This document shows positions 11,001-34,114 of a stretch of 36,035 nt of DNA, piece by piece. The stretch is from NCBI GenBank assembly GCA_026391195.1, contig JAPLEI010000082.1:1-36035 (forward strand). The letters run 5' to 3'. The notes under the pieces are model-generated. The model was not told the DNA's origin and made no database searches. It saw nothing but the letters and a program-made list of their open reading frames with translations. The DNA is from Bacteroidota bacterium. GTDB lineage: Bacteria > Bacteroidota > Bacteroidia > Chitinophagales > Chitinophagaceae. The position numbers and the translations under genes are program-made. How positions within the stretch are numbered: the first letter of the stretch is position 1; each line of letters starts with the position of its first letter.

Positions 11001-11150
11001 TTACTCTGGCTTCAAGCGGATAATTTTATCTTCCCGAAGAACCACCACTACGCTATTTTTTTGTTTCTTGAATTCTAGCATTTTCCTGTAAGAATTTTCA
11101 AGCCCCATCAAAATCTTGTTTCTTCTATCAAGCTTATTTTGCGTTTTCAT
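11001..11150 (-). CDS. Small protein (about 49 aa), possible antitoxin partner of the zeta-type kinase
   Basis: ORF MKTQNKLDRRNKILMGLENSYRKMLEFKKQKNSVVVVLREDKIIRLKPE; its internal ATG lies inside the 3' end of the kinase ORF (overlap about 17 bp), consistent with translational coupling. Confidence 0.6.
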   Translation of the reverse strand: MKTQNKLDRRNKILMGLENSYRKMLEFKKQKNSVVVVLREDKIIRLKPE

Positions 11151-11721
11151 ATTGCTCCTTGAGTTTTGAAAATAAATGCTGATCCATAGTAGTGAGCGGT
11201 TCATTTTGAGACTTTTCGGCTATCAATACTGGAAGTCCTTCCGAGTTATCGAAAATCATAACCTCATCCGACAAAGGTATAAATATTTCAAATAAATTAA
11301 CTATTCCACGAATATATCTGCGTTCTATTATCGATTCCTCAACATTATGTCCGCCTTCTAAAACCCGAGTCTTAACGCGCTCTTTTGCTAATTCCATATT
11401 TCGGAGCCAGAAAAATAACAGGGTAACATTATATCCATGCGTCTTGGCTGACTTTATGCGTTCTTTATGGCTAATTGATGAAAGCGTTGTTTCGAAAGCA
11501 AAATTATTTCCTTCACGCATCAATTCATCTATTCTATGCAACATAATTCTACCCGCCTCAATAGCAACTTTTTCTGGCTGAAAAGGGGATAGGCCTCTAG
11601 CAATTTCGTCAGCATTCACAAACTCCCGGCAATCTAAAATTTCGGGAAGAATAGTAAATGAGGCAGTTGTTTTTCCAGCACCATTGCAACCGGCTATTAC
11701 ATATAGGGATTTAGCATCCAT
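11134..11721 (-). CDS. Zeta toxin-family / AAA kinase
   Basis: YVIAGCNGAGKTTASFTILPEI (Walker A), FVNADEIARGLSPFQPEKVAIEAGR, NFAFETTLSS: classic zeta-toxin/UDP-GlcNAc kinase-like pattern. Start at MDAKSLY assumed. Confidence 0.85.
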   Translation of the reverse strand: MDAKSLYVIAGCNGAGKTTASFTILPEILDCREFVNADEIARGLSPFQPEKVAIEAGRIMLHRIDELMREGNNFAFETTLSSISHKERIKSAKTHGYNVTLLFFWLRNMELAKERVKTRVLEGGHNVEESIIERRYIRGIVNLFEIFIPLSDEVMIFDNSEGLPVLIAEKSQNEPLTTMDQHLFSKLKEQYENAK

Positions 11722-11925
11722 TATTACAATATACAAAGAAAATTCGGCAAATTGCCTTTTTCAGTATAGGGTTAAGAAAGCGACTTCTTTTTTATGAGTT
11801 TACTCAATTACTTTTTTTCATGGGGTAGTTTGAGTTATAAAAAAACTGCTGAAATGAAATCAGCGGTACGATGTTATTTTTATAATAATATAGGGCCTTT
11901 GATGGGACCAGTTCTGATGAAATCA

Positions 11926-16589: not shown

Positions 16590-17612
16590 TTATTTTTGCT
16601 TAATTACAACAGCACTCACTACCGGTCTTTCTACTCCATTGTCGCCGGGCCTAACTAATAATTGATTGCCCACCACCATACTGGTAGATCCACCACCATC
16701 TAGATTAATCGCATTGGTGCAGGAAAGATCTTTTAACATAGCCGCCAATTCTGCCAAGTTCATACCGGCATAACCTGCCGAAGTATTATCACCCTCTACT
16801 GCCAGCACAATTACTAAGCCACTGCTATTCGCACCAATGGCAGATCTTGGCCGGGAAGTAGTATTATTAATATTGATTAATTCCGCTACATCGGATATTT
16901 GAATGGTACCATTTCTAATCAACATAGGAGAACCTCCAATTGCAGCCGTGGTTACCCATCTGCTGCCTCCTGCAGGGAATAACGCAGTAGGTTCCGCTTG
17001 GGGCGCACTCCCTTCTGCATTGGGTGAGGGGGCTGGGTAGCTGTACACATCATTTAATCCAGCTCCCACATGGTAAATCCAGGCACTAACTGGTTCTCCG
17101 GATGCGTTCATCCCAAAAGCCGCACGCGTTGGATAATAGGCTGTATTTACCCCATTCAATGCACGACTAACTGATTTAATATTTGCACTTAATACGGTAT
17201 TGTTATACTGCACCAGACTATAAGATTGGTTGCTACCAAAAAATCCTCCATTTATGCAGGCATACACCACCCCGGGTTCCTCTTTAAAAAAGTCACTCGG
17301 TTTTTTAGCAGCTGCAGCCAACAGCGGTTTGAACTCGAGGTTTGTTTTTTTACTATCATAGGCCAAACAAAAAGCCTTGGTTTTTTTACCCTGATACAGT
17401 GTGTCGAAATAATATAATTGGATGCCGCTGGGAAATGAGGCAGTGAGTAAGGTTGATAATTTCCAACCAGCGGGAAGGGTTAATAAAGTGGTAGGTGGGG
17501 GGGTAGGTGTTGGGTTAACCGGAGGTACCGGCGTAACTGTTGTATTGTTGCTTTTCGTACAACCCGATAATATCCATAATGAGATGAGTAAAGAGTAGGC
17601 GAACCGTTTCAT
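16590..17612 (-). CDS. Phosphodiester glycosidase family lipoprotein (NAGPA-type)
   Basis: Lipobox LWILSGCTKSN followed by a P/T-rich linker; VVYACINGGFFG, RSAIGANSSGLVIVLAVEGDNTSAGYAGMNLAELAAMLKDLSCTNAINLDGGGSTSMVV (NAGPA domain hallmark). Confidence 0.9.
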   Translation of the reverse strand: MKRFAYSLLISLWILSGCTKSNNTTVTPVPPVNPTPTPPPTTLLTLPAGWKLSTLLTASFPSGIQLYYFDTLYQGKKTKAFCLAYDSKKTNLEFKPLLAAAAKKPSDFFKEEPGVVYACINGGFFGSNQSYSLVQYNNTVLSANIKSVSRALNGVNTAYYPTRAAFGMNASGEPVSAWIYHVGAGLNDVYSYPAPSPNAEGSAPQAEPTALFPAGGSRWVTTAAIGGSPMLIRNGTIQISDVAELININNTTSRPRSAIGANSSGLVIVLAVEGDNTSAGYAGMNLAELAAMLKDLSCTNAINLDGGGSTSMVVGNQLLVRPGDNGVERPVVSAVVIKQK

Positions 17613-17665
17613 GGATTACTTTTTTAATATTGTAGAGAATAGGAAAACTCAAAGCGAAATTTATT

Positions 17666-18763
17666 TTATTGATATAAAGGATCGGTAGCTTCCCGAATGG
17701 TTTCATAATAAAAGTACACTTCGCCCAAATAACCATATTTCCGGTTAATCGTTATCATACTGTTCAGCATGATTTTATCTGCTCGGTATCCATCGCCCAG
17801 TGAAGTAAGCATACCGGGAAATATCCTGTTTTTAAACTCAGCAGGTACCTGCGTGTCGATGGCTTTGAGCGTTTGTTCATAAGCATCAATTTTATAGCGG
17901 TACACCTGCGGTATAATAAAGTCGGCATATCCTTCTTTCAGCCAGGTAGGCCAATCTTGCAAATATTGTTCTTTGCTCCAGGGATAAATACTCGGTGCCC
18001 AGGATACTAAACAGTTCGGTTTTATTGCTTTTACTGCTTTGTAAAGCGATTGGCCAAATTGACTGATTCGATTGGTTTTCCAGTTTAGCCATTCCATTTC
18101 TCGGGGATTTTCGGGAGGCAGTTTCCCCTGATGTTCTTTGGCAAATGCCGCTTGGGTAAATGCGTCGTAGCCACCTTCTGCCGGCATGGCGGGTAACCTG
18201 TCATCTCCCTGTATACCATCCACAGCATAGTTATGTACCACTTCCAATACCAGTTGATTCATAAAAAGCTGTACTTCGGGGTGTAAGGCATTCCACCAGA
18301 AAAATCCATTTTTTTTAAGCAGATTTCCCTTTGCATCCTTGCCCACCCATTGTGGATACTTTGCCAACCAGGCACGCTGACTACTGTCTTTATACGCAAA
18401 GGAAAATCCAAATTCAAACCAGGCATGTACCCGAAGCCCAATTGCATGACCTTCCTCAATAAACACCTGTAAGGGATCAAATCCATTGTAGAGCGAGTCT
18501 TGTTGGATACCGATATAGGAGGCAACTACTTTACTGGGATACATGGTAACACCTCGGTTCCAGACTACCACAAAAATATCGGTGAGTCCATTTTTTTTAC
18601 ATTGGATTACGGTTTCGCGAATTTTCTCTGGCGAGCGCATGGCTTCACTGGCCACATTGGTAATCCAAGTGCCCCTGATAATTTTTTGCTGTGGCTGTGC
18701 AATTGCGGAATACGAAATAATGCCTGCACACAGTAACAGATATAATCGGAAGGGTAGGCTCAT
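17666..18763 (-). CDS. GHL10 (DUF187) glycosyl hydrolase-like protein, exported; DigH/YddW-related family
   Basis: Signal peptide ...IISYSAIAQ; RGTWITNVASEAMRSPEKIRETVIQCKKNGLTDIFVVVWNRGVTMYPS, DGIQGDDRLPAMPAEGGYD, ADFIIPQVYRY. Confidence 0.9.
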   Translation of the reverse strand: MSLPFRLYLLLCAGIISYSAIAQPQQKIIRGTWITNVASEAMRSPEKIRETVIQCKKNGLTDIFVVVWNRGVTMYPSKVVASYIGIQQDSLYNGFDPLQVFIEEGHAIGLRVHAWFEFGFSFAYKDSSQRAWLAKYPQWVGKDAKGNLLKKNGFFWWNALHPEVQLFMNQLVLEVVHNYAVDGIQGDDRLPAMPAEGGYDAFTQAAFAKEHQGKLPPENPREMEWLNWKTNRISQFGQSLYKAVKAIKPNCLVSWAPSIYPWSKEQYLQDWPTWLKEGYADFIIPQVYRYKIDAYEQTLKAIDTQVPAEFKNRIFPGMLTSLGDGYRADKIMLNSMITINRKYGYLGEVYFYYETIREATDPLYQ

Positions 18764-19689
18764 AATTTTATATATTCCTTATAGCGATTGTATAAATGAT
18801 GCGCTTGCGGATAAGCAGATTGGGGACTCATAAAATGGGAGAATTCAAAAGTAATCGCCTTATCATAGCCAGCTCTTGCGGCAGCATCTAATTTAAGCTT
18901 GAGCTTCTCGAACTTGATGGGTAAAAACTTGATGGGCATGTCTCTGTCAAAAGATTCGGCATTCGTCCAGCACTTCAGTTGATATCGATCTGCCAGTTGT
19001 TTGTTCACCCGAAAAAAATCTTCCATTTCATGAAAATCAATATGTCCATCCTGAAAAGCAACCGCATCAATTGCGTGTTGAATTCCATCAAAAATTTCAT
19101 TCCATTCTTTTTCATGTTCCTGCAGCGAGATGGCGTCTTCTTTGGTTAGTTGGCCCGATGCTGCCATCACCGCTTTCTTGCCATCTATCCAGGGAGAAAT
19201 AAAAACGGGTAATCCGCCACTAATTTGTTTACAGGTTTTTCCCAGGCTGTCAAAAATTTCTATGGCACCTTTTGTTTTTCGGCTGATTTCAGTGCTGATA
19301 TACCAACCCTTAAACGCTTTTCGGTTTCCGTACATTTTCCAAATCTCATCAATCACAAACCGATTCACATCTACCTCGTGTTGCATATTTCCTGTATCCC
19401 AATAAAAACCACTGTCGTACAATCCAAAATAAAATTGCATCTCATACTTTTCGGCCAGGGTTAAATACAGATCAATTAAATCGATAGGAGGGCGATAGCA
19501 TCCCTGCTGATTGATTAGATAGGGAGATGGATAAGTGAGGAAACGCCGGTAGCCACATCGGATAACAATTACAGTATCTATGCCTATGGCTTTCATGTGT
19601 TGAAAGTCTTTTTCCCATTCCTCCGGTCCCCAATTTTGATGGGGTATGTCGTGACTGATTTCGTCGATAAATGTGCCGGTAATTTGCAT
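18760..19689 (-). CDS. DUF4434-type TIM-barrel protein, apparently cytoplasmic
   Basis: ITGTFIDEISHDIPHQNWGPEEWEKDFQHMKAIGIDTVIVIRCGY...YPSP; no signal peptide; ATGA overlap with the downstream GHL10 gene. Confidence 0.8.
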   Translation of the reverse strand: MQITGTFIDEISHDIPHQNWGPEEWEKDFQHMKAIGIDTVIVIRCGYRRFLTYPSPYLINQQGCYRPPIDLIDLYLTLAEKYEMQFYFGLYDSGFYWDTGNMQHEVDVNRFVIDEIWKMYGNRKAFKGWYISTEISRKTKGAIEIFDSLGKTCKQISGGLPVFISPWIDGKKAVMAASGQLTKEDAISLQEHEKEWNEIFDGIQHAIDAVAFQDGHIDFHEMEDFFRVNKQLADRYQLKCWTNAESFDRDMPIKFLPIKFEKLKLKLDAAARAGYDKAITFEFSHFMSPQSAYPQAHHLYNRYKEYIKL

Positions 19690-19704
19690 ACGGGGGTATT
19701 GATA

Positions 19705-20991
19705 TTAAGTTTCCGGGTTGTTGGATTTGTCGGATAAAGGTACCAACCAGCTTACTAAAAATGCTGGTATAGTAGAAACTAATACCCAGATAAAGAAATG
19801 CGCATACCCCAGATAATCGCTGATGGCACCACTCATCATAGAGGCTATGGTATAACCAAAGTACGTAATGGCACTACCAAAAGCATAATGCGCCATCTGA
19901 TAGGGCCCGGGTGCAATCCGCTGCATAATGAATAAAATAATACCAATAAAGCCGAAGCCATAGCCGAAGTGTTCTACCGCTATAGCGGTTCCGATTACCC
20001 ATACGGAACTGGCCTGTGTGATGGCAAGATATGCATAGGCGGCAAAGGGCAAATTAAAAAAGGCACAAAGCAGTAGTAAAGTTGTTCGGGTTAGCCCCTT
20101 ATTAGAAACAAAGTATCCGGCTGCCAGTGAACCCAGAACAAATGCCGCTGTTCCATAGATGCCGGTAAGCAGGCCTACCGTAGCCTCTGATAAACCTAAG
20201 CCACCAGCAGCGCGCGTTGCTTTTAAAAATAAAGGCATAATTTTTATCCCCTGCCCCTCTGCGAATCGGTACAATACAATAAATAGAATGCCGGCCCATA
20301 TATGTTTTTTTCTAAAAAAGCTCACCATCACATCTTTTAGCGTAATCCATACTTCGCGGGTGCTGGTTACTGATCTGGCCGTTGTTGAATCTGGCAATAC
20401 ACCCCGGTTGTACATACCCAATGCCAACATAATAATGGCATAAATGGCTAATACTACGGCCCAGGCATCCCGGTCTCCAATAACAGGAATCAGTATGCCC
20501 GCTAAAAACACCATCCCCCCGTTAGAGAAAAGCTTTGCAACATTATAAAAAGTACCCTGCCATCCTACATAGCGCGCCTGATCACTGGCTGATAACTCAC
20601 TAAGATAAATACCATCCGCCGCCATATCCTGCGTAGCACCAAAAAAGGCAATCAAAAAGAACAACGTTACCGAAAGGGGAAAAAAGGTTGCCGTATACAA
20701 GGAAAGTACCGAAAGCGCAAACAAAACGCCACAGGCAATTTGGGAAACCTGGATATAGAACTTTTTGGTTTTGTACAACTCCATAAAAGGACCCCATAAT
20801 GGCTTAAAACTCCAGGGTAAAACAATGATGCCAGTCCAAAATGCAATCTGACCATCAGAATACCCCAAGCTCTTATACAGAAGTGAGGCTACCGTACCGC
20901 CCAGCACCAAATTGGGTAACCCCATCGCAAACCAGGTAGTAGGAATCCAGTAAAATGGATGGCGAGATGATTTTTTTTCAGCATTAGTCAT
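19705..20991 (-). CDS. MFS transporter, AmpG-like
   Basis: About 12 hydrophobic segments; GLPNLVLGGTVASLLYKSLGYSDGQIAFWTG...PWSFKPLWGPFMEL, FFGATQDMAADGIYLSELSASDQARYVGWQG resembles the AmpG/acetyl-CoA transporter-like MFS group. Confidence 0.88.
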   Translation of the reverse strand: MTNAEKKSSRHPFYWIPTTWFAMGLPNLVLGGTVASLLYKSLGYSDGQIAFWTGIIVLPWSFKPLWGPFMELYKTKKFYIQVSQIACGVLFALSVLSLYTATFFPLSVTLFFLIAFFGATQDMAADGIYLSELSASDQARYVGWQGTFYNVAKLFSNGGMVFLAGILIPVIGDRDAWAVVLAIYAIIMLALGMYNRGVLPDSTTARSVTSTREVWITLKDVMVSFFRKKHIWAGILFIVLYRFAEGQGIKIMPLFLKATRAAGGLGLSEATVGLLTGIYGTAAFVLGSLAAGYFVSNKGLTRTTLLLLCAFFNLPFAAYAYLAITQASSVWVIGTAIAVEHFGYGFGFIGIILFIMQRIAPGPYQMAHYAFGSAITYFGYTIASMMSGAISDYLGYAHFFIWVLVSTIPAFLVSWLVPLSDKSNNPET

Positions 20992-21084
20992 ACAGCAGTC
21001 CGAAAATTATTAATTAAAAAATTTAAAAACTATAGGTGAATTTATAATTTTTTTAATTTAGTAGCTCCTAATCACCCCAAATTC

Positions 21085-22275
21085 ATGCAAAATAACCTGA
21101 TTTTTTCCCGATACAACCCCTTCCGGATTGTAATTCTTGCCATTTTGCTATCTTTTTGCATCGGTTGTGCTAAGTCAGGCACAAACGGTGGAGGAACTAC
21201 ACCTCCTACACCCACTCCCAACCCTCCTTCACCTGTTTGGGATGCCAATGCAATGCGGGGGGTATGGGTAACAACCACAGCTAGTACCGCATTGGATTCA
21301 AGGGAAAATATTAAGACTATGGTTAGCAGTTGTAAAACTGCCGGCATCAATCATTTATTTATTGTAGTATATAACAATGCCCGAACCATTTACCCGAGTA
21401 CAGTTATGCAAAATCTGATTGGGAAACAACAGTTAGAGAAGTTTGTGGGCCGAGACCCTTTGCAGGAATGCGTGGAAGAAGCCAAGGCACAAGGTTTAAA
21501 AGTACATGCCTGGTTTGAGTATGGATTCTCCTCTTCTTATTCGGCCAATGGCGGACCCATTGTGGCAGCCAAACCCAATTGGGCGGGAAAAGACCAGGCT
21601 GGAAATCTATTGGTTAAAAATGGATTCGACTGGCTGAATGGCATTCATCCGGAAGTTCAGCAGTTTATGATTGATATGTTTAAAGAAGTTGTTACCAAAT
21701 ATGATGTGGATGGCGTGCAGGGCGACGATCGATTGCCCGCCATGCCCAGTACTGGCGGATATGATGCCTATACGGTTGGATTGTATCAGTCCGAAAATGC
21801 CGGTGCCTCCCCGCCCCCGAATCCGGCAGAAGTGAATTGGGTAAATTGGCGGGTAAAAAAGTTAAACCAATTTGTAAAGCGTTTGCGAACAGAAATACGG
21901 CAGATTAAATCTTCCATTCAATTGTCTATGTCTCCAAGCCCTTTCCCATGGGGAAGAGATGAATATTTACAAGACTGGCCAACCTGGGTAGACAGTGGAT
22001 GGGTTGATGCAGTAATACCTCAGTGTTACCGATATGATATCGGTGCATACAATACAGTTTTGTTGCAACAGAAATCCTATCATCGCAGTACCACCATTCC
22101 ATTATATTCGGGGGTATTATTGCGTTCAGGAACCTATACGGCAACAGATGCTTTTTTAACCCAGATGATTCAAAGTAACCGAAACAATGGCATCAAGGGG
22201 GAGACCTACTTTTTTTATGAAGGCATTAAGGATCGGGCTGCCTGGTTTCAGGGTCAGTATCCTTTTATAAAATAA
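21085..22275 (+). CDS. GHL10 (DUF187) glycosyl hydrolase-like lipoprotein, second paralog
   Basis: Lipobox LLSFCIGCAKSG followed by a GGGTTPPTPTPNPPSP linker; MRGVWVTTTASTALDSRENIKTMVSSCKTAGINHLFIVVYN, DGVQGDDRLPAMPSTGGYD, DEYLQDWPTWVDSGWVDAVIPQCYRY. Confidence 0.9.
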   Translation: MQNNLIFSRYNPFRIVILAILLSFCIGCAKSGTNGGGTTPPTPTPNPPSPVWDANAMRGVWVTTTASTALDSRENIKTMVSSCKTAGINHLFIVVYNNARTIYPSTVMQNLIGKQQLEKFVGRDPLQECVEEAKAQGLKVHAWFEYGFSSSYSANGGPIVAAKPNWAGKDQAGNLLVKNGFDWLNGIHPEVQQFMIDMFKEVVTKYDVDGVQGDDRLPAMPSTGGYDAYTVGLYQSENAGASPPPNPAEVNWVNWRVKKLNQFVKRLRTEIRQIKSSIQLSMSPSPFPWGRDEYLQDWPTWVDSGWVDAVIPQCYRYDIGAYNTVLLQQKSYHRSTTIPLYSGVLLRSGTYTATDAFLTQMIQSNRNNGIKGETYFFYEGIKDRAAWFQGQYPFIK

Positions 22276-22278
22276 ATT

Positions 22279-24435
22279 ATGCTTACAAGAAACCTGTTGG
22301 TAGCGGCATCAATTATTGCCGGCACCCATGCAACCGTTGCTGCACAAAATTTTACCCGATGGGTTGATCCCTTTCTCGGAACCGGAGGGCATGGACACAC
22401 CTATCCCGGCGCTACCCGTCCATTCGGGATGGTTCAACTGAGCCCCGATAATGGAACAGAGGGATGGGACTGGAGCAGCGGCTACCACTATAGCAGCGAT
22501 AGCATTGCCGGTTTTAGTACCCATCTCAATGGAACCGGTAGTGGTGACTGGTGCGATATTTCATTTCAGCCACTGGCAGATACTGTTAATAGTGGTAAAC
22601 GATTTATTAAGCATGCTTTTCAACATAAAAATGAAAAAGCGGCACCGGGATATTATTCGGTTCAATTCAATAATGGTATCCGCTGCGAACTCACGACAAC
22701 TAAGCGTGTTGGGTTTCACCGATATCAATATACGTCGGCAAAAAAATGGGTTCGAATTGATTTGGATTTTCATATCAACTGGGATAAAACAACTGCTTCT
22801 TATGTTAAATTATTGGATGATTCTACCATTGTAGGCTATCGTTATTCTACTGGTTGGGCAAAAAATCAGCGGGTATATTTTGCGGCACGGTTTAATCGCG
22901 CAGTAGTAAACCATCGTTTTCTGGGGGCCGACAATGCTGATGCTCTATCGGCCAGTGGACTTTCCCTTAAAATGTTGGTTGAACTAGGAGGAAACGATCG
23001 TAGTCTCTCAATCAAAACCGGATTGAGTAGTGTGAGTTATGAAAAAGCTTTGCTGGCTTTACAAGAAGTGGGAGGGCAAAGTTTTGAGCAGGTAGTAAAA
23101 TCAGCAACAATGGATTGGGAAAAAGAGTTGAGTAAAATCAGGATACCCACTACCGATCCTGCTTTTGCCACCCGATTTTATACAGCGTTGTACAGAACCT
23201 GTCTTTCTCCTTCTTTATATTCGGATGCCGATGGAACCTACCGCAACCAAGATAATCGGGTGCTTACTATGCCGGGAGGCAATAGTCGATATACCATCTT
23301 CTCACTCTGGGATACATTCAGGGCTTTGAATCCTTTGTATACTATCACGCAACCAGATAGGGTTCCGGCATTTATCAACAGCATGTTACAGTTTTATGCG
23401 GACAATGGTTTGCTGCCGGTTTGGGATATCAGTACCTGGGAAGCTAATACCATGACGGGGTATCATGCCATTCCGGTAATTGCCGATGCTATTTTGAAAA
23501 ATATTTCCGGATTTGATGAAGCGAAAGCATATGAGGCGATGCGAAAAAGTGCTTTTCAGCAACAAAGAGGTACCCAAGATTATATTAAATACGGCTACCT
23601 GCCACAAGACAAACATGGATGGAGTGTAACCATTACCCTAGAATATGCATACGACGATTGGTGCATTGCCCAGGTTGCCCGTAAATTGGGTAAGATGGAT
23701 GATTACAATCTTTTTATGCAACGCTCCAAAAGCTACCAGCCTTTGTTTGATGCATCCACCGGATTTATGCGGGCAAAAAATAGTAAGGGCGTTTTTATTG
23801 AGCAATTCGACCCCCTGCTTTCCGAACATGGATTTGATGGACAATATATTGAAGGTACCGCCTGGCAGCATAGTTTTTTTGTGCCCCATGATGTAAATGG
23901 ATTTGCTCAACTGATGGGAGGGAAACAGCAGTTAGTAAACAAACTAGATGAATTGTTTACCGCTCCCTCCGAACTGCATGGGGATAATACTTCTGCAGAC
24001 GTTACAGGTTTGATTGGCCAATACGCCCATGGAAATGAGCCCAGTCACCACATAATTTATATGTACAGCACATTAGGCAGAAGAGATAAGGCCGCCAAAT
24101 GGATAAAAGTAGTGGCCGACAGTATGTATAAAAATGGCGCAAACGGCTTAACGGGAAATGATGATTGTGGACAGATGAGTGCCTGGTATATATGGACCAG
24201 TCTTGGTTTATATCCCATGAATCCCGCTTCCGGTGAGTACGTAATTGGGTTTCCGCTGCTGGATTCGGCTACCTTACAATTGCCGAATGGAAAAAAATTG
24301 CAAATACAAACGAAAGGTAGAAGAACTAAGGATGCCTTTGTGAAAGAAGCATATTGGAACGGAAAAAAAGTTAATCAGTATTATATCACCCATGCTCAGC
24401 TAATGCAGGGAGGTGAGTTAATTTATGTTTTGTAA
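22279..24435 (+). CDS. GH92 family exo-alpha-mannosidase, secreted
   Basis: WVDPFLGTGGHGHTYPGATRPFGMVQLSPDNG, FSLWDTFRALNPLYT, EGTAWQHSFFVPHDVNG, GNEPSHHIIYMYSTLG, GNDDCGQMSAWYIWTSLGLYP: diagnostic GH92 motifs. Confidence 0.97.
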   Translation: MLTRNLLVAASIIAGTHATVAAQNFTRWVDPFLGTGGHGHTYPGATRPFGMVQLSPDNGTEGWDWSSGYHYSSDSIAGFSTHLNGTGSGDWCDISFQPLADTVNSGKRFIKHAFQHKNEKAAPGYYSVQFNNGIRCELTTTKRVGFHRYQYTSAKKWVRIDLDFHINWDKTTASYVKLLDDSTIVGYRYSTGWAKNQRVYFAARFNRAVVNHRFLGADNADALSASGLSLKMLVELGGNDRSLSIKTGLSSVSYEKALLALQEVGGQSFEQVVKSATMDWEKELSKIRIPTTDPAFATRFYTALYRTCLSPSLYSDADGTYRNQDNRVLTMPGGNSRYTIFSLWDTFRALNPLYTITQPDRVPAFINSMLQFYADNGLLPVWDISTWEANTMTGYHAIPVIADAILKNISGFDEAKAYEAMRKSAFQQQRGTQDYIKYGYLPQDKHGWSVTITLEYAYDDWCIAQVARKLGKMDDYNLFMQRSKSYQPLFDASTGFMRAKNSKGVFIEQFDPLLSEHGFDGQYIEGTAWQHSFFVPHDVNGFAQLMGGKQQLVNKLDELFTAPSELHGDNTSADVTGLIGQYAHGNEPSHHIIYMYSTLGRRDKAAKWIKVVADSMYKNGANGLTGNDDCGQMSAWYIWTSLGLYPMNPASGEYVIGFPLLDSATLQLPNGKKLQIQTKGRRTKDAFVKEAYWNGKKVNQYYITHAQLMQGGELIYVL

Positions 24436-24595
24436 CCGCATAGCTTATTTGTAGCTAACATATCGTATGGATTCTTATTACTCGAATTGGACTATGTTTT
24501 AGTTCCGCTAGAATTGTTTTCTGTAGATACAATAGCATCCTATAGACTCATCTCACTCCGGGTGAATGAGTATTGCAAACAAAAAGTGTAAAAAG

Positions 24596-24634
24596 AAAAG
24601 CAGGCCATCAAGTGAATGAGGCCTGCTTTTTTTT
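24596..24634. terminator. Bidirectional rho-independent terminator
   Basis: aaaagcaggcc-atcaagtgaatga-ggcctgctttt tttt: perfect 11-bp stem with U-tract, between convergent GH92 (+) and susD (-). Confidence 0.9.
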
Positions 24635-24664
24635 ACCTAAACTGCTGTTAGGCAAGGGGGAAAA

Positions 24665-26458
24665 CTACCAACCGGGATTTTGTGTTATACCAGGATTGTT
24701 ATCAATCTCTGGCTGAGGTATCGGCCAGAGTTTATATTTTGCGTTGGTGTTTGCACGTGTTTGTGCACGGAACCGAATCCGCTGATTGATGCTGGTACTA
24801 TAATCGGGAATATTATTGGCATCAAATACCGGAAGCGCAGCGGGAATAGCAGGATCTAATGAAATACCTACAATTGGAACGCTATTGGCTTTGGCATAAA
24901 TATCCCATCTTCTTAAGTCGAACAACCGCAATCCTTCTCCGGCAAATTCAACGGCTCTTTCTCTGCGAACCAGGGTTCTCAGATCGCTTTGAGCAGCAAG
25001 TGCAGTAGCAGGTTGGCCCGAACGGGCACGAACTGCATTGATAGCTGCAGTTACGGTTGCATCAATTTCATTCAATTCTATTTTCGATTCAGCATACATT
25101 AATAGAATGTCGGCATAACGAAGCAAATTGTAACCAACTTTCGATTCAAATGTATATTGGGTAGAATCGTTGTATTTGTTCCAAACATATCCAACCCCAC
25201 CAATATTTCCGGTTGCACTCACCTGCCACTGAATACCGGCAGCTTGCGCACCAATCCAATCGTTATTACCACCTGCTATATTATCCCACACGCCAGTGTT
25301 CCAGTTGAACTTTCTTCGAACATTGGTATAAATATTAAAAATGGTTCTCTCCCGAAGATTATTGTAAGGAAGTGCAGCTGTTTTAGATGCAAAATGCACC
25401 ATGGTATCACCCGGTTGATAAATACTCCAGGCCAACCGGCGGTCTCTGTTCAATCTTGGATTGGCAGGATCGTAGGTAGTAGAGGCATCAATTCGGTTAC
25501 CGCTTCTGTCTTCAAACTGGTCTACCAGTGCCTGTGATGGGAAATGGCTCGACTGAGAATTGGTTACCTGACGGGGAACACCCAAAATCGGTCCCCAGTT
25601 TTGGGGTTCATTCACATCTGTAGGATAGGTTTGGCAGAATAAAATTTCTCTACCTGCATTGGTATTCTGACCGGCCAGTGAAAACAGGTTCTGAAAAGAA
25701 GGATTCAATGAATACTGGGCACCATCAATAATTGCTTTGGAAGCGGCGGCTGCAGTTTTAAAATCCTTGATTAATAAAGCCAGTTTTGCTTTTATACCCA
25801 GTGCAACGGCTTTGTTTACTTTTCCCAAGGTTTGAACTGGTGCAGTTCCTGCAGCATCGAAGGCAGCAGCGGCCTCATCCAAATCTTTGTTCAAATCCGC
25901 TACAATAGTTGCAACTGCAGTACGTTTTGCACTTAACACTTCAGAAACGGCGGGAGGTGCCTTATAAAAAGGTACATCACCGAACCAGCTAATTAGGTGA
26001 AAATATCCCCAGGCTCTCAGCACCTGTGCTTCTGCTTTAATACGATTGTAAGTGGTTGCCGTAACATTGGCTCTTCCGTTTTCCATACCAGCAATTTGCT
26101 GATTGGCTCTTTGTACCAGCTTATAGGCCTGATTCCAAGCAGCACCTGTAACCGCGTTGTTTACAAGAAACGGTCCGCCATCTCCCATGGCAATCAGGTC
26201 GGCAGCATTACCACCTCTTTTCATAGCCATGTCGGTACTAGCTTCAATTTCGTACAGCATGGGTGTATTATTTGCAATCACCCACATAGAGGAGGCATAT
26301 ACCCCCGTAAGACCCTGTTCCATTTCTGCCTGATTACTTAAGAAAGTAGTAGCAGATGATGCATCCAGCGGCTTCCTGTCGAGAAATTTCTGACAAGCAC
26401 TGAAACTAAGTGCCAGCACTGGAAGCAGCAGTAATAGTTGCTTTTTCATATTATTCAT
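24665..26458 (-). CDS. susD-like: RagB/SusD family nutrient uptake outer-membrane lipoprotein
   Basis: Lipobox LALSFSACQKFLDRKPLD; ADILLMYAESKIELNEIDATVTAAINAVRARSG, RRERAVEFAGEGLRLFDLRRWD, KLWPIPQPEIDNNPGITQNPGW. Confidence 0.97.
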   Translation of the reverse strand: MNNMKKQLLLLLPVLALSFSACQKFLDRKPLDASSATTFLSNQAEMEQGLTGVYASSMWVIANNTPMLYEIEASTDMAMKRGGNAADLIAMGDGGPFLVNNAVTGAAWNQAYKLVQRANQQIAGMENGRANVTATTYNRIKAEAQVLRAWGYFHLISWFGDVPFYKAPPAVSEVLSAKRTAVATIVADLNKDLDEAAAAFDAAGTAPVQTLGKVNKAVALGIKAKLALLIKDFKTAAAASKAIIDGAQYSLNPSFQNLFSLAGQNTNAGREILFCQTYPTDVNEPQNWGPILGVPRQVTNSQSSHFPSQALVDQFEDRSGNRIDASTTYDPANPRLNRDRRLAWSIYQPGDTMVHFASKTAALPYNNLRERTIFNIYTNVRRKFNWNTGVWDNIAGGNNDWIGAQAAGIQWQVSATGNIGGVGYVWNKYNDSTQYTFESKVGYNLLRYADILLMYAESKIELNEIDATVTAAINAVRARSGQPATALAAQSDLRTLVRRERAVEFAGEGLRLFDLRRWDIYAKANSVPIVGISLDPAIPAALPVFDANNIPDYSTSINQRIRFRAQTRANTNAKYKLWPIPQPEIDNNPGITQNPGW

Positions 26459-26472
26459 TTTTACTGTTACAG

Positions 26473-29400
26473 TTAAAAGTTAACGTTAATACCTCCGGTG
26501 AATGTGCGCATCAGCGGATAAAATTCTGCATTGGCGCTGTTGATTTCTGGGTCAAATCCTTTCCAGGCATCCGACAAGGTTAGCAAATTGGCACAGCTGA
26601 AATAAACGCGCAGACTGCTAATTTTTGCTTTATTCAACAGCGACTTCGGAATGGTATATCCGATATTGATATTCTTGATACGGAAGTAAGCAGCACTTCT
26701 AATCCATTGACTGGCCAGCAAAAAGTTATTGCCGCCCGATCCAGAAGGAAGGAGTCTAGGGAATAAAGAATTTTGGTTTTCAGGCCGCCAGTAATCTTTA
26801 TGAATATCTAGTAGAGAGGCTGCGAAATCTGCTGAGTTGAATGGAACCGCACCGGTACCGCTCAGGTAGTTATTTCTCATTCCAACGCCCTGACCAAAGA
26901 GGTTGAAATCCCAGTTTCCATAAGTCAGGTTGATGTTGATAGAATATTCATATCTAGGGAAAGAATTTCCAATAAATTTCCGGTCGTTTGCATCAATCTT
27001 TCCATCATTGTTAATATCTGCATAGCGAACATCGCCGGGTTTGGGACCGGTAGTAAGACTAGAGCTCCATGGAATTCCGAATTGAACGGGAGAAATTTTA
27101 ACGTCATTCGAATCGCTGAAGTAACCGGAACTAACATAACCAAAATAAGAGCCCAATGCTTCGCCTGGGGCAGTTCTGATACCATCTCCAATAAAGGGGG
27201 TTCCATCTACCAGACTAACTACTTTATTCTTTACGTCTGAAATCATACCAGTTACATCCACACCCAGTTTGCCGAATTTGTTTCTGTAATTAACCGTAAA
27301 CTCCCATCCTTTGTTTTCCATGTTACCGGCATTTACAAATGGATTAGATAATCCACCTGCAGACTGTGGAAGGGTTCTTTGCAGTAACATATTTTTAAGT
27401 GACTTCACATAATAGTCGGCAGTGAAGGTGAAATGTTTTGCCAAGGTGAGGTCTAACCCGATATTGAATTGACGGGAAGTTTCCCAGCTTAAATCGGGAT
27501 TGGCAAATTGTAATAGGGCAAATCCTAGGTTGGTAGAATTGGCAAAGTAGGCATTGGTACCATTGTTGGGGTTGCTGTATCCTGACTGAGCATAGAAGGC
27601 ATCAAAGGCATAGTTGTTGCCGATATTTTGATTTCCGTTTCCTCCATAAGAAGCACGGAGTTTACCAAATATAATATCCTTACTAAGCGACTCCATGAAT
27701 TTTTCTTTAGAAAAAATCCAGCCGGCAGAAATGGCGCCAAAATTACCCCATTGCTTATCCAGTGCCTGTGAAAAACGAGAGCTACCGTCTCTACGACCAT
27801 TCAGTTCTAGATAATATTTATCGGCATAGCTATAGTTGAAACGGGCAAAGTAACCGGCGAGCGCCAGTTCAGAAGCTCCGGCATTATTATCACGAATACC
27901 AGATCCGAGATTCAGGTAAGGTTGATTTGAATTGATAAAGCCCTGACGGGAAGCACCAAAGAAATAATTGGTAAATAACTCAGACTGACCACCCACTAGT
28001 AATTTAAAGCTATGTGCTCCAATTCTTTTGCTGTAGGTACCCTGTGCGAGATAGGTGGTATATACGTTGTTCGTCCATGCTTCTGATAAGCTGGTTGTTC
28101 CGGGCCAAGTGCCTATCAACGAATAAGAAGAAGTAGCCAGGTTGGGCTGATAAATATTGGCATTGGTTATCCAGGTTTTCGAATTCGGGTTGGTGGTTTG
28201 TCTACCCCAATAGGCTTCCACCTCTAATCCCGTAATCGGATGATAATTAAATCCGGCACGGGTAAGTAAGATATTGTTATTTACAACCGAATTGCCGGTA
28301 GCTTCTGCCATGGCAATGGGATTACGGTTGTTCGATTGGGCAGCGGTTCCATACATACCCGGACCATATTTACCACCTCCAATAGCCGGCAATCCAATAG
28401 CCTGACGGATAACAAATTCGGCCGAACCGGTAGAAGGGTTGGTAGTAATACTGTTCGTGTAAGCAAGTACGCCTATAAGCGAAAGTTTTTTACTCAATTT
28501 GAATTCAGGATTCAGTCGCAGATCATATTTGCTAAATGAACTGTTTGGAATCAATCCCTGTTGCGTTAAATACGTGAATGAGCCAAAAAAATTCATTTTT
28601 TCACTGCCTGCATTCAGTTGAATGTTGTGGTTCTGCATGAGGCCGGTATTGGTTAATACTTCGTTTAACCAATCGGTATCTATAACATCCAGGTTATTGG
28701 CAGGTGTAGTTTTGTATTTATCAATCAATGCCTGCGAAAATAGAAATGCTGCCGGATTGCCGGTTCTGTTTTGCTCTGCCACATTACTCAGCTGCATATG
28801 ATCAATGGCACTTACCCTTTCTGGGATTGCAGTAGCTTGTTGTTTGGTAACAAATCCGTTATAGCTCAATTTCATTTGACCATTTGTTCCCCTTTTCGTT
28901 TTTACCAGCACAACCCCGTTGCTGGCTCTGTTTCCATAAATGGAAGTAGAAGCAGCATCTTTCAGCAGGGTGATACTTTCAATGGCATTGGGGTCTATCA
29001 GATCTAAGGAGCCAATGGCTAATCCGTCTACAATAATCAGCGGAGCACTGCTTCCAGAAATAGATCCTTGTCCACGTATAATAATACTGGCACCATCTGC
29101 ACCGGGTTTTCCGGATTGTTGTTGAACAGTTACCCCAGGAGCCAAACCTTGCAATGCTTGGCTGGTACTGGAAACCTGTCTGCGGTTCAGTGCCTCGTTA
29201 TTGAGGGTAACCAATGATCCGGTTAAGCTGGCCTTTTTCTGTGCGCCATAACCTACCACTACCACTTCACCCAAATCACCAGAAGTGGCCTGGAGAGCTA
29301 CATCGAGCAGGTTACCGGTAACTTTTACTTCTTTGGTTGCAAAACCAATTCCGGAAAATACCAGCTCGGCACCTTTGTCGGCCGGAATGCTAAATTCACC

Positions 29401-29571
29401 ATTTGTTCCGGTTGTGGTGCCGGATTTTTTGCCTTTAACTACAACAGTGATGCCTTCTGCTGGATTACCGGTTCCGGAACTAGTAACCCTACCCGACACC
29501 CTGTTTGTTTGCGCTATCGCCTGCTGAAATAGCAGCAATAACAGGCAAGCAAGGAAAGATAGTTTTTTCAT
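26473..29571 (-). CDS. susC-like: SusC/RagA family TonB-linked outer-membrane protein
   Basis: Signal peptide, carboxypeptidase-like N-domain, VVVVGYGAQKKASLTGS, plug domain IIIRGQGSISGSSAPLIIVDG, C-terminal beta-barrel ending in F. Confidence 0.98.
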   Translation of the reverse strand: MKKLSFLACLLLLLFQQAIAQTNRVSGRVTSSGTGNPAEGITVVVKGKKSGTTTGTNGEFSIPADKGAELVFSGIGFATKEVKVTGNLLDVALQATSGDLGEVVVVGYGAQKKASLTGSLVTLNNEALNRRQVSSTSQALQGLAPGVTVQQQSGKPGADGASIIIRGQGSISGSSAPLIIVDGLAIGSLDLIDPNAIESITLLKDAASTSIYGNRASNGVVLVKTKRGTNGQMKLSYNGFVTKQQATAIPERVSAIDHMQLSNVAEQNRTGNPAAFLFSQALIDKYKTTPANNLDVIDTDWLNEVLTNTGLMQNHNIQLNAGSEKMNFFGSFTYLTQQGLIPNSSFSKYDLRLNPEFKLSKKLSLIGVLAYTNSITTNPSTGSAEFVIRQAIGLPAIGGGKYGPGMYGTAAQSNNRNPIAMAEATGNSVVNNNILLTRAGFNYHPITGLEVEAYWGRQTTNPNSKTWITNANIYQPNLATSSYSLIGTWPGTTSLSEAWTNNVYTTYLAQGTYSKRIGAHSFKLLVGGQSELFTNYFFGASRQGFINSNQPYLNLGSGIRDNNAGASELALAGYFARFNYSYADKYYLELNGRRDGSSRFSQALDKQWGNFGAISAGWIFSKEKFMESLSKDIIFGKLRASYGGNGNQNIGNNYAFDAFYAQSGYSNPNNGTNAYFANSTNLGFALLQFANPDLSWETSRQFNIGLDLTLAKHFTFTADYYVKSLKNMLLQRTLPQSAGGLSNPFVNAGNMENKGWEFTVNYRNKFGKLGVDVTGMISDVKNKVVSLVDGTPFIGDGIRTAPGEALGSYFGYVSSGYFSDSNDVKISPVQFGIPWSSSLTTGPKPGDVRYADINNDGKIDANDRKFIGNSFPRYEYSININLTYGNWDFNLFGQGVGMRNNYLSGTGAVPFNSADFAASLLDIHKDYWRPENQNSLFPRLLPSGSGGNNFLLASQWIRSAAYFRIKNINIGYTIPKSLLNKAKISSLRVYFSCANLLTLSDAWKGFDPEINSANAEFYPLMRTFTGGINVNF

Positions 29572-29582
29572 AATTGTTTGTT

Positions 29583-31499
29583 TTAGTTTGAATATTTCGG
29601 TTGAAATTGTCCGTGGAGATTAACACCCAATAAATCGAAAGGATTTACCTGCGTATCTAGCAGCTTGGCAAACTGCACGCGGGTGATGGGTTGATTGGAA
29701 TTAAACAACCCAAACCCCCACTTTTTCCAAAGGGTTGCTATTTGCTTTTTTCGCAGGGGTGGGTTACTCGTGTTCGAAGATCCAGGTACTTGGTTTTGTA
29801 GTACAATGGATTTTACAATTGCCAGGGCCTCATTCCCCGTAAGGAATTCGCCGGCATTCAGTGAAATGGTCTTTCCTGTAAAGGGTTGCAGGTCTATCAG
29901 TAGGCTATCCTTTCGAATCAGCGAATCTGGATAGAACCAGGTTTGATTGGCCCAGGCATTGGGTTTGCCGGTTCCTCTCAATATTCCGGTAGCACCTATT
30001 CGTTGAACCGCTTCGAACTGTGGATGCTTGGCAGGTACATCATAATAAGGCATTAGATAAGCACCCTGTTGTAACAAACTGGCTTGCACCAATCGAACGG
30101 CTACATCAGCCGCATTTGCCTTGCCCTGTTGAACACTCAATGCTGCCAGCGTGCCCGCTGCTTGCCCGGTTAATAATACACAGGGCTGTAACCGGGTGGT
30201 ACCATTGGCCAGGTTAGAAACGCTGATGGCCTTTTCTGCTACAATCAATCCCTCCATATTCGCGGGTAACAATGCGCCTAAGGGAATAGTAAAAGAGGGT
30301 ACCGGATAAAAATCTAAGTGTTGTGGAGCGAGTGGATTTTTTTTGTGGTGATGATCTACCGGATAATCACCTACCGAAATACCGGTGCGGTAAAGGGGTT
30401 CGCCATTGTTATAGGGATTGGCAATATGTTGAATTTTAAATCTCACAATACCCTTTACCCTTCTGCCTTCGCGATGATAGGGAATCAGTGCAAGTTTGTC
30501 TTCGGTTGGAAATTCATCATCCGTCAGTCCCAAATTTTTAAAACCCAATTCATGTTGTATAAAGTATACAAAGCGGAGAGTTGTTTGCCGGGCTTTCGAC
30601 AATTCTACCTGGCGCATCGAATCGGATAACTGAATTACGTTCAAATAAGTATCGTTTCCAAATATTGGCCAGTTGAGCATGTACTTGTTGTTGGGTAGTT
30701 TACCATAGTCCAACATCTTTTTGGCATCAACACCGGGTGCTTTCCGGGAAAGGTCTTTGTAGTAATTGGTGCAACTGCCATCAAATTCTGCGGGATTATA
30801 ACCCACAGGCTTGGCAATGGTACAATCGGCAGCAGCCCCATACGTTTTTAATATTGCAACATAAGTGAGGTCTTGAATAATATCGTTTGTTTCGGCTACC
30901 GGGATATTTTCTCCGGTTAGGCGGTTGGCTTCCATGCCAATGTCGTAGGGCAGTTTTGCCATCTCCAGCAGGTCGCCTAATTCGGTGGCATCAATTACTT
31001 GTTGTGCAAAAATGTATACGGTACGGTTATTCTGCAAATTGCGCAGCACCGCCCCTTTCATATTTTCTCCTTCAACCATTGCCGCGATTGGTTGATGGCG
31101 GAATAGTACTTTCAGGTTCGGCAGGCGAGCCGCCATGCTTTTAAAAATACTGTCGCCAATATGGGGTTCAAATAAGGTATTGCTTACCCATCCGGTTGAT
31201 ACTTTCTTTTCACCGCCATATTTTGTGTACAGCGCATTGCGAAATTCTGCCCATAAACCCGAGGGTAAACTATGGTTACCATCTACTGCACTTACGCCAG
31301 CAGCTGTAAGCATTCCACCCAACCAGGTAGTTGCCTCCGTAATAATTACCTGCCTGCCTAATCGGGCTGCTTGAATGCCTGCAGCGGTTCCTCCCACACC
31401 GCCTCCTACTACTAGTATTTCAGTACGCAGGGTATCCTGCGCAACCATAGCGGTAGAAAGAGAAAGAAGGGGGATTATATGGAGTAGTTTCTTCAGCAG
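29583..31499 (-). CDS. FAD-dependent oxidoreductase (FAD_oxidored type) with SLH-like C-terminal region; probable non-ATG start
   Basis: EILVVGGGVGGTAAGIQAARLGRQVIITEATTWLGGMLTAAGV dinucleotide fold; VIDATELGDLLEMA. First ATG is at 31448, but the in-frame upstream codons CTG CTG AAG AAA CTA CTC CAT ATA ATC ... encode LLKKLLHIIPLLSLSTAMVAQ, a typical signal peptide. Confidence 0.85.
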   Translation of the reverse strand: MLKKLLHIIPLLSLSTAMVAQDTLRTEILVVGGGVGGTAAGIQAARLGRQVIITEATTWLGGMLTAAGVSAVDGNHSLPSGLWAEFRNALYTKYGGEKKVSTGWVSNTLFEPHIGDSIFKSMAARLPNLKVLFRHQPIAAMVEGENMKGAVLRNLQNNRTVYIFAQQVIDATELGDLLEMAKLPYDIGMEANRLTGENIPVAETNDIIQDLTYVAILKTYGAAADCTIAKPVGYNPAEFDGSCTNYYKDLSRKAPGVDAKKMLDYGKLPNNKYMLNWPIFGNDTYLNVIQLSDSMRQVELSKARQTTLRFVYFIQHELGFKNLGLTDDEFPTEDKLALIPYHREGRRVKGIVRFKIQHIANPYNNGEPLYRTGISVGDYPVDHHHKKNPLAPQHLDFYPVPSFTIPLGALLPANMEGLIVAEKAISVSNLANGTTRLQPCVLLTGQAAGTLAALSVQQGKANAADVAVRLVQASLLQQGAYLMPYYDVPAKHPQFEAVQRIGATGILRGTGKPNAWANQTWFYPDSLIRKDSLLIDLQPFTGKTISLNAGEFLTGNEALAIVKSIVLQNQVPGSSNTSNPPLRKKQIATLWKKWGFGLFNSNQPITRVQFAKLLDTQVNPFDLLGVNLHGQFQPKYSN

Positions 31500-31509
31500 A
31501 AAAATTTAT

Positions 31510-32709
31510 TTAAGATTCGAGAGATGATAAGGTATGGGCAACCTGATATAAAGCACGGGGAATATGGAAACAACCCTTCCATTTGCCACCCTTCAGGGGC
31601 GTAAGCACTTGCCCTTGTCTGTTCAGGTAGCCGAACCATTCTCCCTGCTCTTTATCTTTAAAATGTTTCCAGGTATACTCATGTAATTTTTTAAACCAAG
31701 GCACGCATCTGGCATCTCCCGTAAATGCATAGGCTTTTGCCAGGGCAACCAGTGCTTCTACATGCACCCACCAAAGTTTTTGATCCCACTCCAGCTGCTG
31801 CATAGGGTATCCCTTCACATCCTGAAAGTAAAAGATACCGCCATGTTCCTTATCCCAACCGAGTTCCAGCATATCAAACAGAATGGTTACGGCACGTTGA
31901 ATCAACGCTTCATCTTTCATTCTTTTACCCAGATCCATAATAAACCACATGGCTTCAATGGCGTGCCCGGGATTTAACAGTCTTCCCTCAAAACTATTCG
32001 AAAAGGAACCATCGGGTTGAACATTTTCCAATACCACTTTCCATTCCCGATTATAAAAAACTTCCATCACTTCATGGATAACTTCGGGCACAAAACTGTT
32101 CACTCTTTCGGTTCCTAACAGGTGTTCCAGCTCGAGCGACAGATTGCACAAAATCATGGGCAAGCTGAAATTCTTCAGGGGTCGGGTTCCGGGATAGGCT
32201 TTGTTATATTTCCCCTTGGTATTATTTTTTCTGGCAATGATATTTTCAAAAGTGCTCAGGGCGATATCTTTATATTCGTCGGAAGGTTGAATTCTATCTA
32301 AGGCTGCAAACGCCATGGTGGCAAAGCAATCGCTGAATATATTATAGGGCTGTACCAGGGGCTGTCCGTTGGCAGTAAGTGAAAAATACCAGTTACCCGA
32401 TTCATCTCGGCCATGTTGTTGCATAAACCGGGCACCATGTAAAGCCATTGCTAACCACTCTTGCTTGGGAGCTACATGCTGATACATATAACTGAAACAC
32501 CAAACCTGCCTTCCCTGCAGCCACATAAATTTATCGGTATCGTATACCTGGCCAGCTCTATCTAAACAAGTAAAAAATCCTCCATTTTGCTCGTCCTTAC
32601 TATTATGCAGCCAAAAGGGGAGAATATTATTAACCAATTCATCCTGATACATACCCGCATACGATTGTAAAGATTGCTCGGGAGCTGTTTTCAATGTTTC
32701 TAATTCCAT
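31510..32709 (-). CDS. AGE family epimerase (N-acylglucosamine 2-epimerase / RENBP-like)
   Basis: NNILPFWLHNSKDEQNGGFFTCLDRAGQVYDTDKFMWLQGRQVW, LNPGHAIEAMWFIMDL, LWWVHVEALVALAKAY. Confidence 0.93.
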   Translation of the reverse strand: MELETLKTAPEQSLQSYAGMYQDELVNNILPFWLHNSKDEQNGGFFTCLDRAGQVYDTDKFMWLQGRQVWCFSYMYQHVAPKQEWLAMALHGARFMQQHGRDESGNWYFSLTANGQPLVQPYNIFSDCFATMAFAALDRIQPSDEYKDIALSTFENIIARKNNTKGKYNKAYPGTRPLKNFSLPMILCNLSLELEHLLGTERVNSFVPEVIHEVMEVFYNREWKVVLENVQPDGSFSNSFEGRLLNPGHAIEAMWFIMDLGKRMKDEALIQRAVTILFDMLELGWDKEHGGIFYFQDVKGYPMQQLEWDQKLWWVHVEALVALAKAYAFTGDARCVPWFKKLHEYTWKHFKDKEQGEWFGYLNRQGQVLTPLKGGKWKGCFHIPRALYQVAHTLSSLES

Positions 32710-32881
32710 GAAGGCACCTATAGTTAGTAATCAAATAAAAGATAAGTACGGCAATATCTTAAAAATATTACAAATAACCCAATACTTAATAAAATAATTT
32801 ATTTAGTTGAGGCTTTCTTTGCAGTTTTTATCGAAAAATCAAACTAAATTGTCCCTGTTTTCACCCGAATTACAAGCTGGT

Positions 32882-34114
32882 ATGGCACGTAACCGTATTT
32901 TTTCCGATGTATTTAACGAAGAGACTTCTTCCGGGGTCGCCCTGAAAAACAAGGCACTTAAAAAGCTGATTTTTAATATATTAGATAAAGCCGACAGCAG
33001 TTCTATTACCGAGATCAGCAAGGAATTGAACATCAGTGTACCCAAAACAACCAGTTTAATCAATGAATTGATTGAAGATCGATTGATCAGCGATTATGGA
33101 AAGATTGATTCTACTGGGGGGCGAAAAGCCAGTATGTATGGGTTGGTGGCGGAAGCCTGTTTCTTTTTAGGGGTGGATGTGAAGAAATATTACGTGAATA
33201 TTGGCTTGATGGATTTTAAGAAGCACCTCGTTACCCAAAAAACCAAGATCCCCTTCCGCCTCGAAAATACCCAGGCTTCTCTTTCACAACTGATTCAATT
33301 AATTAACCAGTTTATTAAAGAGGCGCCGGTAAAGAAAGATAAGATATTGAGTATGGGCATCAATCTTTCGGGGCGTATCAATCATACCATTGGGTATAGC
33401 TATAGCTTCTTCCATTTTCAGGAAGAGCCTTTATCCGGCATCATCGAAAGCAAAACCGGCATAAAAACTTATCTCGAAAACGACTCACGGGCCATGGCCT
33501 ATGGCGAATTTATGTGCGGGGAAGTGAGTACCGAGAAGAACGTACTTTTTGTGAACGTAGACTATGGCGTGGGCTTGGGCATTTTAATAGACGGAAAAAT
33601 TTATTATGGTAAGTCGGGATTCAGCGGCGAATTTGGACATGCCCCCATTTTTGAGAATGAAATTATTTGTCATTGCGGAAAAAAAGGTTGTCTCGAAACT
33701 GAAGCTTCCGGCACTGCCCTTATCCGACGGTTTCGCGAACGGATTCAGGAGGGCTCTTCCTCTTCTGTTGTAAAGAAAGTAAAAAACCTGAACGACCTTA
33801 CGGTTACCGATTTAATACAGGCTGCCAATGCGGAGGATATGCTCTGCATCGAACTACTGGCAGAAGTAGGCGAGAAACTGGGAAAGGGATTGGCGGCACT
33901 TATCAATGTGTTTAATCCCGAACTGATCATTTTAGGAAGAACCCTATCCGAAACTGGCGATTACCTTCGATTGCCCACCAAAAGTGCTATTAATAAGTTT
34001 TCATTGAGCTTGGTAAATACAGATACACAGCTAAAGCTCTCGCGGCTGGGGGAGAAAGCGGGGGTGCTGGGGGCTTGCCTGCTGGCCAGAAATAAAGTGC
34101 TTACTGTTTTTTAA
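32882..34114 (+). CDS. ROK family transcriptional regulator (NagC-like: HTH plus sugar-kinase-like domain)
   Basis: ITEISKELNISVPKTTSLINELIEDRLISDYG HTH; GFSGEFGHAPIFENEIICHCGKKGCLETEASG ROK zinc motif. TTG at 32807 gives a longer ORF; ATG at 32882 is the more conservative start. Confidence 0.92.
   Translation: MARNRIFSDVFNEETSSGVALKNKALKKLIFNILDKADSSSITEISKELNISVPKTTSLINELIEDRLISDYGKIDSTGGRKASMYGLVAEACFFLGVDVKKYYVNIGLMDFKKHLVTQKTKIPFRLENTQASLSQLIQLINQFIKEAPVKKDKILSMGINLSGRINHTIGYSYSFFHFQEEPLSGIIESKTGIKTYLENDSRAMAYGEFMCGEVSTEKNVLFVNVDYGVGLGILIDGKIYYGKSGFSGEFGHAPIFENEIICHCGKKGCLETEASGTALIRRFRERIQEGSSSSVVKKVKNLNDLTVTDLIQAANAEDMLCIELLAEVGEKLGKGLAALINVFNPELIILGRTLSETGDYLRLPTKSAINKFSLSLVNTDTQLKLSRLGEKAGVLGACLLARNKVLTVF

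Follow-up and report, generated by a model that had tools for sequence, protein, structure and literature searches.

A candidate amino-sugar glycan utilisation locus with a predicted ROK operator in a Chitinophagaceae genome, and its likeness to the NanR region of gut Bacteroides

The stretch analysed here (the window, 36,035 nucleotides) is the entire contig JAPLEI010000082.1 (C5) in a 3.16 Mb Bacteroidota genome, and between positions 16590 and 34114 it carries a cluster of eleven genes that we discuss as a candidate glycan utilisation locus. The closest named relatives are metagenome-assembled genomes of Chitinophagaceae, one of which has a NAGPA protein 96% identical to that of the window. 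Gene calls were checked against Pfam and NCBIfam models, and the matches lay far over the cut-offs. An earlier reading made from the letters of the DNA (the sequence-only reading) had listed these eleven genes in three transcription blocks; all are present with the positions and strands it gave and with high domain scores, and its block layout is right.

The first block, on the minus strand, comprises a predicted phosphodiester glycosidase of the NAGPA type with a lipoprotein-type leader (LSGC; 16590–17612; PF09992, 98 bits, cut-off 25), a secreted GHL10 protein of a distinct subfamily (GHL10a; 17666–18763; PF02638, 198 bits), a DUF4434 protein (18760–19689; PF14488, 277 bits) and an inner-membrane transporter of the major facilitator superfamily (MFS; 19705–20991; PF07690). 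On the plus strand follow a second member of the same GHL10 subfamily, with lipoprotein-type leader FCIGC (GHL10b; 21085–22275; PF02638, 210 bits), and a secreted GH92 alpha-mannosidase (22279–24435; PF07971, 555 bits). The third block, again on the minus strand, encodes a SusD-like surface glycan-binding lipoprotein (24665–26458; PF07980, 154 bits), a SusC-like TonB-dependent transporter (26473–29571; TIGR04056, 804 bits), an oxidoreductase dependent on flavin adenine dinucleotide (FAD; 29583–31499; PF12831, 296 bits) and a cytoplasmic N-acylglucosamine 2-epimerase (AGE; 31510–32709; GlcNAc_2-epim, 250 bits). A regulator of the NanR/NagC-type ROK family is read divergently on the plus strand (32879–34114; PF00480, 189 bits). 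The susC–susD pair thus stands side by side, together with carbohydrate enzymes and a regulator, as in SusCD polysaccharide utilisation loci. No tRNA or Rfam element was found in the window; a sigma-70 promoter scan stayed under the shuffle level, and a terminator scan was close to it.

A scan of genome contigs yielded 36 loci, and the block is kept in about 15 Chitinophagaceae relatives with the recurring order ROK / AGE-FAD-SusC-SusD / GH92-GHL10b / transporter-(GDSL)-DUF4434-GHL10a-NAGPA. The M20 peptidase and the lipase that flank the block in the window were found in no relative except one near-identical contig, so conservation ends at the block edges. Because gene order is kept and the flanks are not, the block is no chance assembly. 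A neighbourhood comparison had been named as a check in the sequence-only reading, and the three blocks were indeed conserved together. NAGPA orthologues (at least 50% identity) occur in 8 of the 150 genomes of the family, and the distribution is patchy, with DUF4434 absent from two genomes of the window's own genus. Across relatives, the recurrent partners are alpha-mannosidases, NAGPA, phosphoesterases, esterases, DUF5009, NagB::PIG-L and GH20. In several relatives, a sodium:solute symporter (SSF) stands in place of the MFS transporter.

The three blocks also share a candidate regulatory signal. A weight matrix was trained on the ROK/AGE promoters of five relatives, with the window excluded, and was scanned over the 36 kb. 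Its top site lies in the AGE/ROK promoter (19.8 bits, a score reached in 0 of 300 shuffles), where the predicted palindromic ROK operator ACTTAATAAAATAATTTATTTAGT spans 24 bases (32784–32807). The second-best site is a candidate operator in the promoter region between the divergent MFS and GHL10b genes (21039–21062, minus strand; 11.1 bits, 5 of 300 shuffles). A further scan, over the promoters of relatives, used a training set that also included the AGE/ROK site of the window. All nine MFS-type promoters (from eight genomes) then had a site reached by at most 5 of 100 shuffles, and only one of six SSF-type promoters had a site at that level. The motif ranks first in three probable Bacteroidaceae loci, at the FAD/ROK promoter (L094), upstream of a GHL10 gene (L093) and upstream of FAD (L096), and in three Pedobacter loci the ROK promoter holds its first- or second-ranked site. 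By comparison of these promoters, the operator-like motif is common to the window and Bacteroidaceae-like genomes. The most plausible reading of the three transcription blocks is a single ROK regulon with a predicted AT-rich operator. Since the TTG at 32807, from which the regulator's open reading frame is listed, sits at the end of this operator, it is an unlikely start, and translation of ROK probably begins at the ATG at 32879.

Within the locus, DUF4434 is associated with AGE. Among 396 genomes of the phylum, a DUF4434 orthologue was found in 20 and AGE in 58, and every one of the 20 DUF4434 genomes also has AGE (Fisher p about 8e-19). Counted by genus, this dependency holds in 14 of 14 (p about 5e-11), both p-values ignoring kinship above genus level, and in 15 of the 20 genomes the two genes are at most 25 kb apart. 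The AGE of the window belongs to its named family: it passes the equivalog model NF052547 (658 bits, cut-off 600) and closely matches the solved AGEs 6F04 and 2GZ6, with the active-site motifs of Arg, two His and Glu aligned. DUF4434 matches PDB entry 4H41 with 539 bits, an entry named as BT_0435 of Bacteroides thetaiotaomicron in the fold search, and is about 71% identical to this orthologue. Its structure model is a TIM barrel (mean predicted local distance difference test score, pLDDT, 78), and among solved structures the GHL10 domain of Cwp19 comes nearest to it, second only to BT_0435. Glu134 after strand beta4 and Glu245 after strand beta7 are invariant in 33 DUF4434 sequences. A Glu after strand 4 and a Glu after strand 7 form the pattern of clan-A-type retaining glycosidases. 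By this invariant pair, DUF4434 is probably a retaining glycosidase. A literature search turned up no paper on the family. The protein has no leader in Chitinophagaceae and is thus predicted to be cytoplasmic, and the probable Bacteroidaceae copies have a twin-arginine-type leader. In two distant relatives, from family f48, a gene for an S66 LD-carboxypeptidase directly follows DUF4434 (L101:10970-12067 and L102:15057-16139), the sole peptidoglycan-type enzyme seen right beside it.

The sequence-only reading had considered for the GHL10 pair a peptidoglycan activity like that of E. coli DigH. GHL10a and GHL10b do share the family and the central Asp pair (Asp195/Asp196 in Cwp19) with DigH and Cwp19, but the Gln77, Arg132, Tyr197 and Ser368 positions of those enzymes are replaced in the window. 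Of the sequences compared, 23 of 23 GHL10a and 20 of 22 GHL10b carry other residues in place of Gln77, Arg132 and Tyr197, which Cwp19 and DigH have in common, with Arg132 likewise lost. Hence the peptidoglycan reading does not transfer to this subfamily, and we rejected a DigH-like specificity. In another locus, a single protein (L095:4969-7644) joins a GHL10 domain, DUF4985 and a complete calcineurin-type phosphoesterase, which directly links the GHL10 glycosidase family to phosphate esters.

GH92 retains the ordinary catalytic acid Glu, found in all aligned members, and by residue alignment it is without the His584-Glu585 pair that marks alpha-1,2 enzymes. It resembles alpha-1,3-type enzymes and falls in their clade, near BT3130 and a plant-N-glycan enzyme. 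CcMan5, a phosphodiester-specific GH92, has Gln at the catalytic acid position. A phosphodiester-type GH92, as the sequence-only reading had considered, was therefore rejected on the retained Glu, with the altered residue of CcMan5 taken as background knowledge. The C-terminal core of the window's NAGPA aligns with solved uncovering-enzyme structures and shares the R-[ST]A-x-G and NLDGGGS motifs with human NAGPA and the DUF2233 protein 3OHG, although just about 75–90 residues align confidently by sequence. No usable paper came from literature searches on phosphodiester capsules and bacterial NAGPA. The earlier phosphodiester theme is supported indirectly by NAGPA itself and, in relatives, by calcineurin-type phosphoesterases; the GH92 part of it is not. 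NAGPA-like domains are also present within proteins of about 1,830 residues in Rufibacter and Sabulibacter (L051–L056), outside this locus type.

The MFS transporter is AmpG-like in a loose sense only. Its score against the AmpG model TIGR00901 is 107 bits under a cut-off of 350, and with the SSF replacement in relatives we rejected a true AmpG. For the FAD oxidoreductase, the open reading frame bounded by ATG covers 29583–31448, and an in-frame hydrophobic leader, LLKKLLHIIPLLSLSTAMVAQ, a signal peptide, lies upstream of this ATG (31449–31499, minus strand). The sole possible start of the leader is at CTG codons (about 31496–31499); either the start codon is a rare one or the sequence contains an error. 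The FAD genes of relatives encode a leader at the corresponding position, there beginning with ATG, and on both grounds the enzyme is probably periplasmic. Its sequence matches are at the Rossmann level only, and its fold matches were not used because the model is of low confidence (pLDDT 62).

Among described systems, the region BT0433-BT0453 of B. thetaiotaomicron comes closest. BT0433 is described as NanR, with a predicted role as ROK regulator for N-acetylglucosamine (GlcNAc) and sialic acid (PMC3878776), BT0438 is an alpha-N-acetylglucosaminidase (PMC8225759), and BT0446-BT0449 encode DUF5009, GHL10, a calcineurin phosphoesterase and GHL10 (PMC10434189). Operons of this region are reportedly induced in the host by unknown substrates (PMC6989115). 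ROK regulator, DUF4434, SusCD and GHL10 genes are present in both, and DUF5009 occurs in relatives. However, the window is without the lyase, sialidase, GH89 and phosphoesterase, adds GH92, has a different GHL10 pair and a different transporter, and encodes DUF4434 without the twin-arginine-type leader. Relatives of the window's ROK, AGE, FAD and DUF4434 genes are clustered in two probable Bacteroidaceae genomes (L094 and L096), as in the NanR-type neighbourhood, by a comparison of gene neighbourhoods. One of the two genomes adds a lyase-like protein of the dihydrodipicolinate synthase family (DHDPS), a SASA esterase, DUF5018 and the GHL10-phosphoesterase fusion. With the Bacteroidetes nan operon (NanL, NanE, NanT, NanOU), the window shares the epimerase, an MFS transporter and a SusCD pair, but it has neither aldolase nor sialidase, and its SusD is only distantly NanU-like (36 bits, cut-off 425). 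Domain scans found no N-acetylneuraminate lyase or sialidase domain among the locus genes, as the sequence-only reading had noted. Its further remark that no described locus has exactly this gene set seems to hold for the full combination, yet the related BT0433-BT0453 region is partly described.

Taken together, we lean towards a single SusCD-type utilisation locus under NanR-type ROK control. Orthology and synteny would make it a branch of the gut Bacteroides amino-sugar regulon around BT0433-BT0453, one that has no sialic-acid genes. The favoured substrate is a glycan containing GlcNAc and/or N-acetylmannosamine (ManNAc) and alpha-mannose, possibly with sugar-1-phosphodiester links. That a SusCD locus with a ROK regulator is directed at amino sugars had already been proposed, and the conserved neighbourhood and the shared operator motif support it. 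According to this model, SusCD and the lipoproteins NAGPA and GHL10b would capture the glycan at the surface, and in the periplasm GHL10a, GH92 and the FAD oxidoreductase would trim it and alter it. Small saccharides would be imported by the MFS transporter, cytoplasmic DUF4434 would release N-acetylhexosamine, and AGE would convert between ManNAc and GlcNAc to supply the GlcNAc route, for which NagB::PIG-L is encoded on another contig of the genome. The inducer that lifts ROK repression at both divergent promoters may be an amino sugar or its phosphate.

Several observations weigh against this explanation. The site at 21039 is the weaker of the two, is AT-rich and is mostly missing in SSF-type relatives; the best NCBIfam model for ROK is NagC, at 192 bits under an equivalog cut-off of 650; and the FAD enzyme has no explained role. 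Moreover, SusC and SusD are conserved poorly beyond the nearest relatives. In one relative (G381), identities to the window are 71% for DUF4434, 58% for AGE, 50% for ROK and 47% for FAD, but 32% for SusC and 24% for SusD. Hence, different branches may draw on different source glycans, and the kept core suggests that one shared amino-sugar product is freed from them.

A special case of the favoured explanation, which we offer tentatively, is a polymer of the bacterial wall or capsule that contains amino-sugar-1-phosphodiester links, such as ManNAc- or GlcNAc-1-phosphate capsules or the ManNAc-GlcNAc-1-phosphate linkage unit of teichoic acid. NAGPA would open the sugar-1-phosphate bond and AGE would take the released ManNAc, which would give AGE a use where there is no sialate lyase. 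NAGPA is present in all near relatives and in three distant DUF4434-AGE loci, and besides the fusion in L095 a separate phosphoesterase is found in L093. However, the substrate of NAGPA is predicted only, with alignment to the human-type enzyme confined to the C-terminal core, the window itself is without a phosphoesterase, and such a polymer has no obvious need for alpha-mannosidases. A further alternative is mannose-rich N-glycans or fungal phosphomannan, from which GH92 would trim alpha-mannose and NAGPA would take off GlcNAc-1-phosphate caps. The clade of GH92 is in line with this, as are the alpha-mannosidases of family GH38 that four distant DUF4434-AGE loci encode, but GH92 is absent from several otherwise complete loci, and domain scans found no endo-glycosidase, PNGase or beta-mannosidase among the locus genes. 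In addition, AGE stays unexplained because such glycans are without ManNAc, and we regard this substrate as unlikely.

Denuded peptidoglycan, with GHL10 enzymes cutting peptide-free strands like DigH and an AmpG-like transporter importing the products, is more doubtful again. The GHL10 family with its known members DigH and Cwp19, the S66 neighbours of DUF4434 and an apparently split MurQ-like gene elsewhere in the genome fit it; the replaced active-site residues and the transporter findings do not, and the pathway has no role for AGE or an alpha-mannosidase. Use of sialoglycans, for which the lyase and sialidase genes would lie at other places in the genome, seems very improbable. A NanR-type regulator with AGE, the lyase-like DHDPS adjoining AGE in L096 and a BNR_2 sialidase-like protein on another contig would agree with it, but that protein reaches no curated cut-off, the second DHDPS of the genome scores higher as DapA than as N-acetylneuraminate lyase, and lyase or sialidase genes were not identified in near-relative loci.

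When the environmental and gut branches are compared, the downstream core stays the same (ROK, AGE, FAD oxidoreductase, DUF4434, transporter), and the upstream parts are exchanged (SusCD, GHL10 types, GH92/GH38/GH89). One prediction from this comparison concerns DUF4434, a family that has a solved structure but has gone unstudied: it would act as a glycosidase and feed AGE. The comparison also yields a candidate operator, and it narrows the substrate search for the gut NanR region to amino-sugar glycans, which is testable in a laboratory strain of B. thetaiotaomicron. A bolder extension, which we consider speculative and rather unlikely, is that BT_0435-type DUF4434 founds a new retaining glycosidase family passing ManNAc, or a ManNAc-containing product, to AGE. 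The locus and its gut relatives would then form one widespread system, separate from the use of sialic acid, that breaks down bacterial surface glycans with ManNAc and phosphodiester links.

Other genes may be recorded here. Three GH20 enzymes are encoded on other contigs of the genome. The sole match to MurQ, the N-acetylmuramic acid 6-phosphate etherase, is split over two overlapping frames (G000:C57:20457-21280; L113, L114), by a frameshift, as a pseudogene or through an assembly error. A conserved protein of about 400 residues without Pfam match (L066:9280-10482, with relatives in L063, L040, L041, L044 and L048) adjoins ROK or SusCD genes in the branch without GHL10a/b. Outside the locus, the window encodes a Zeta-toxin-like P-loop kinase (11134–11736, minus strand, 43 bits).

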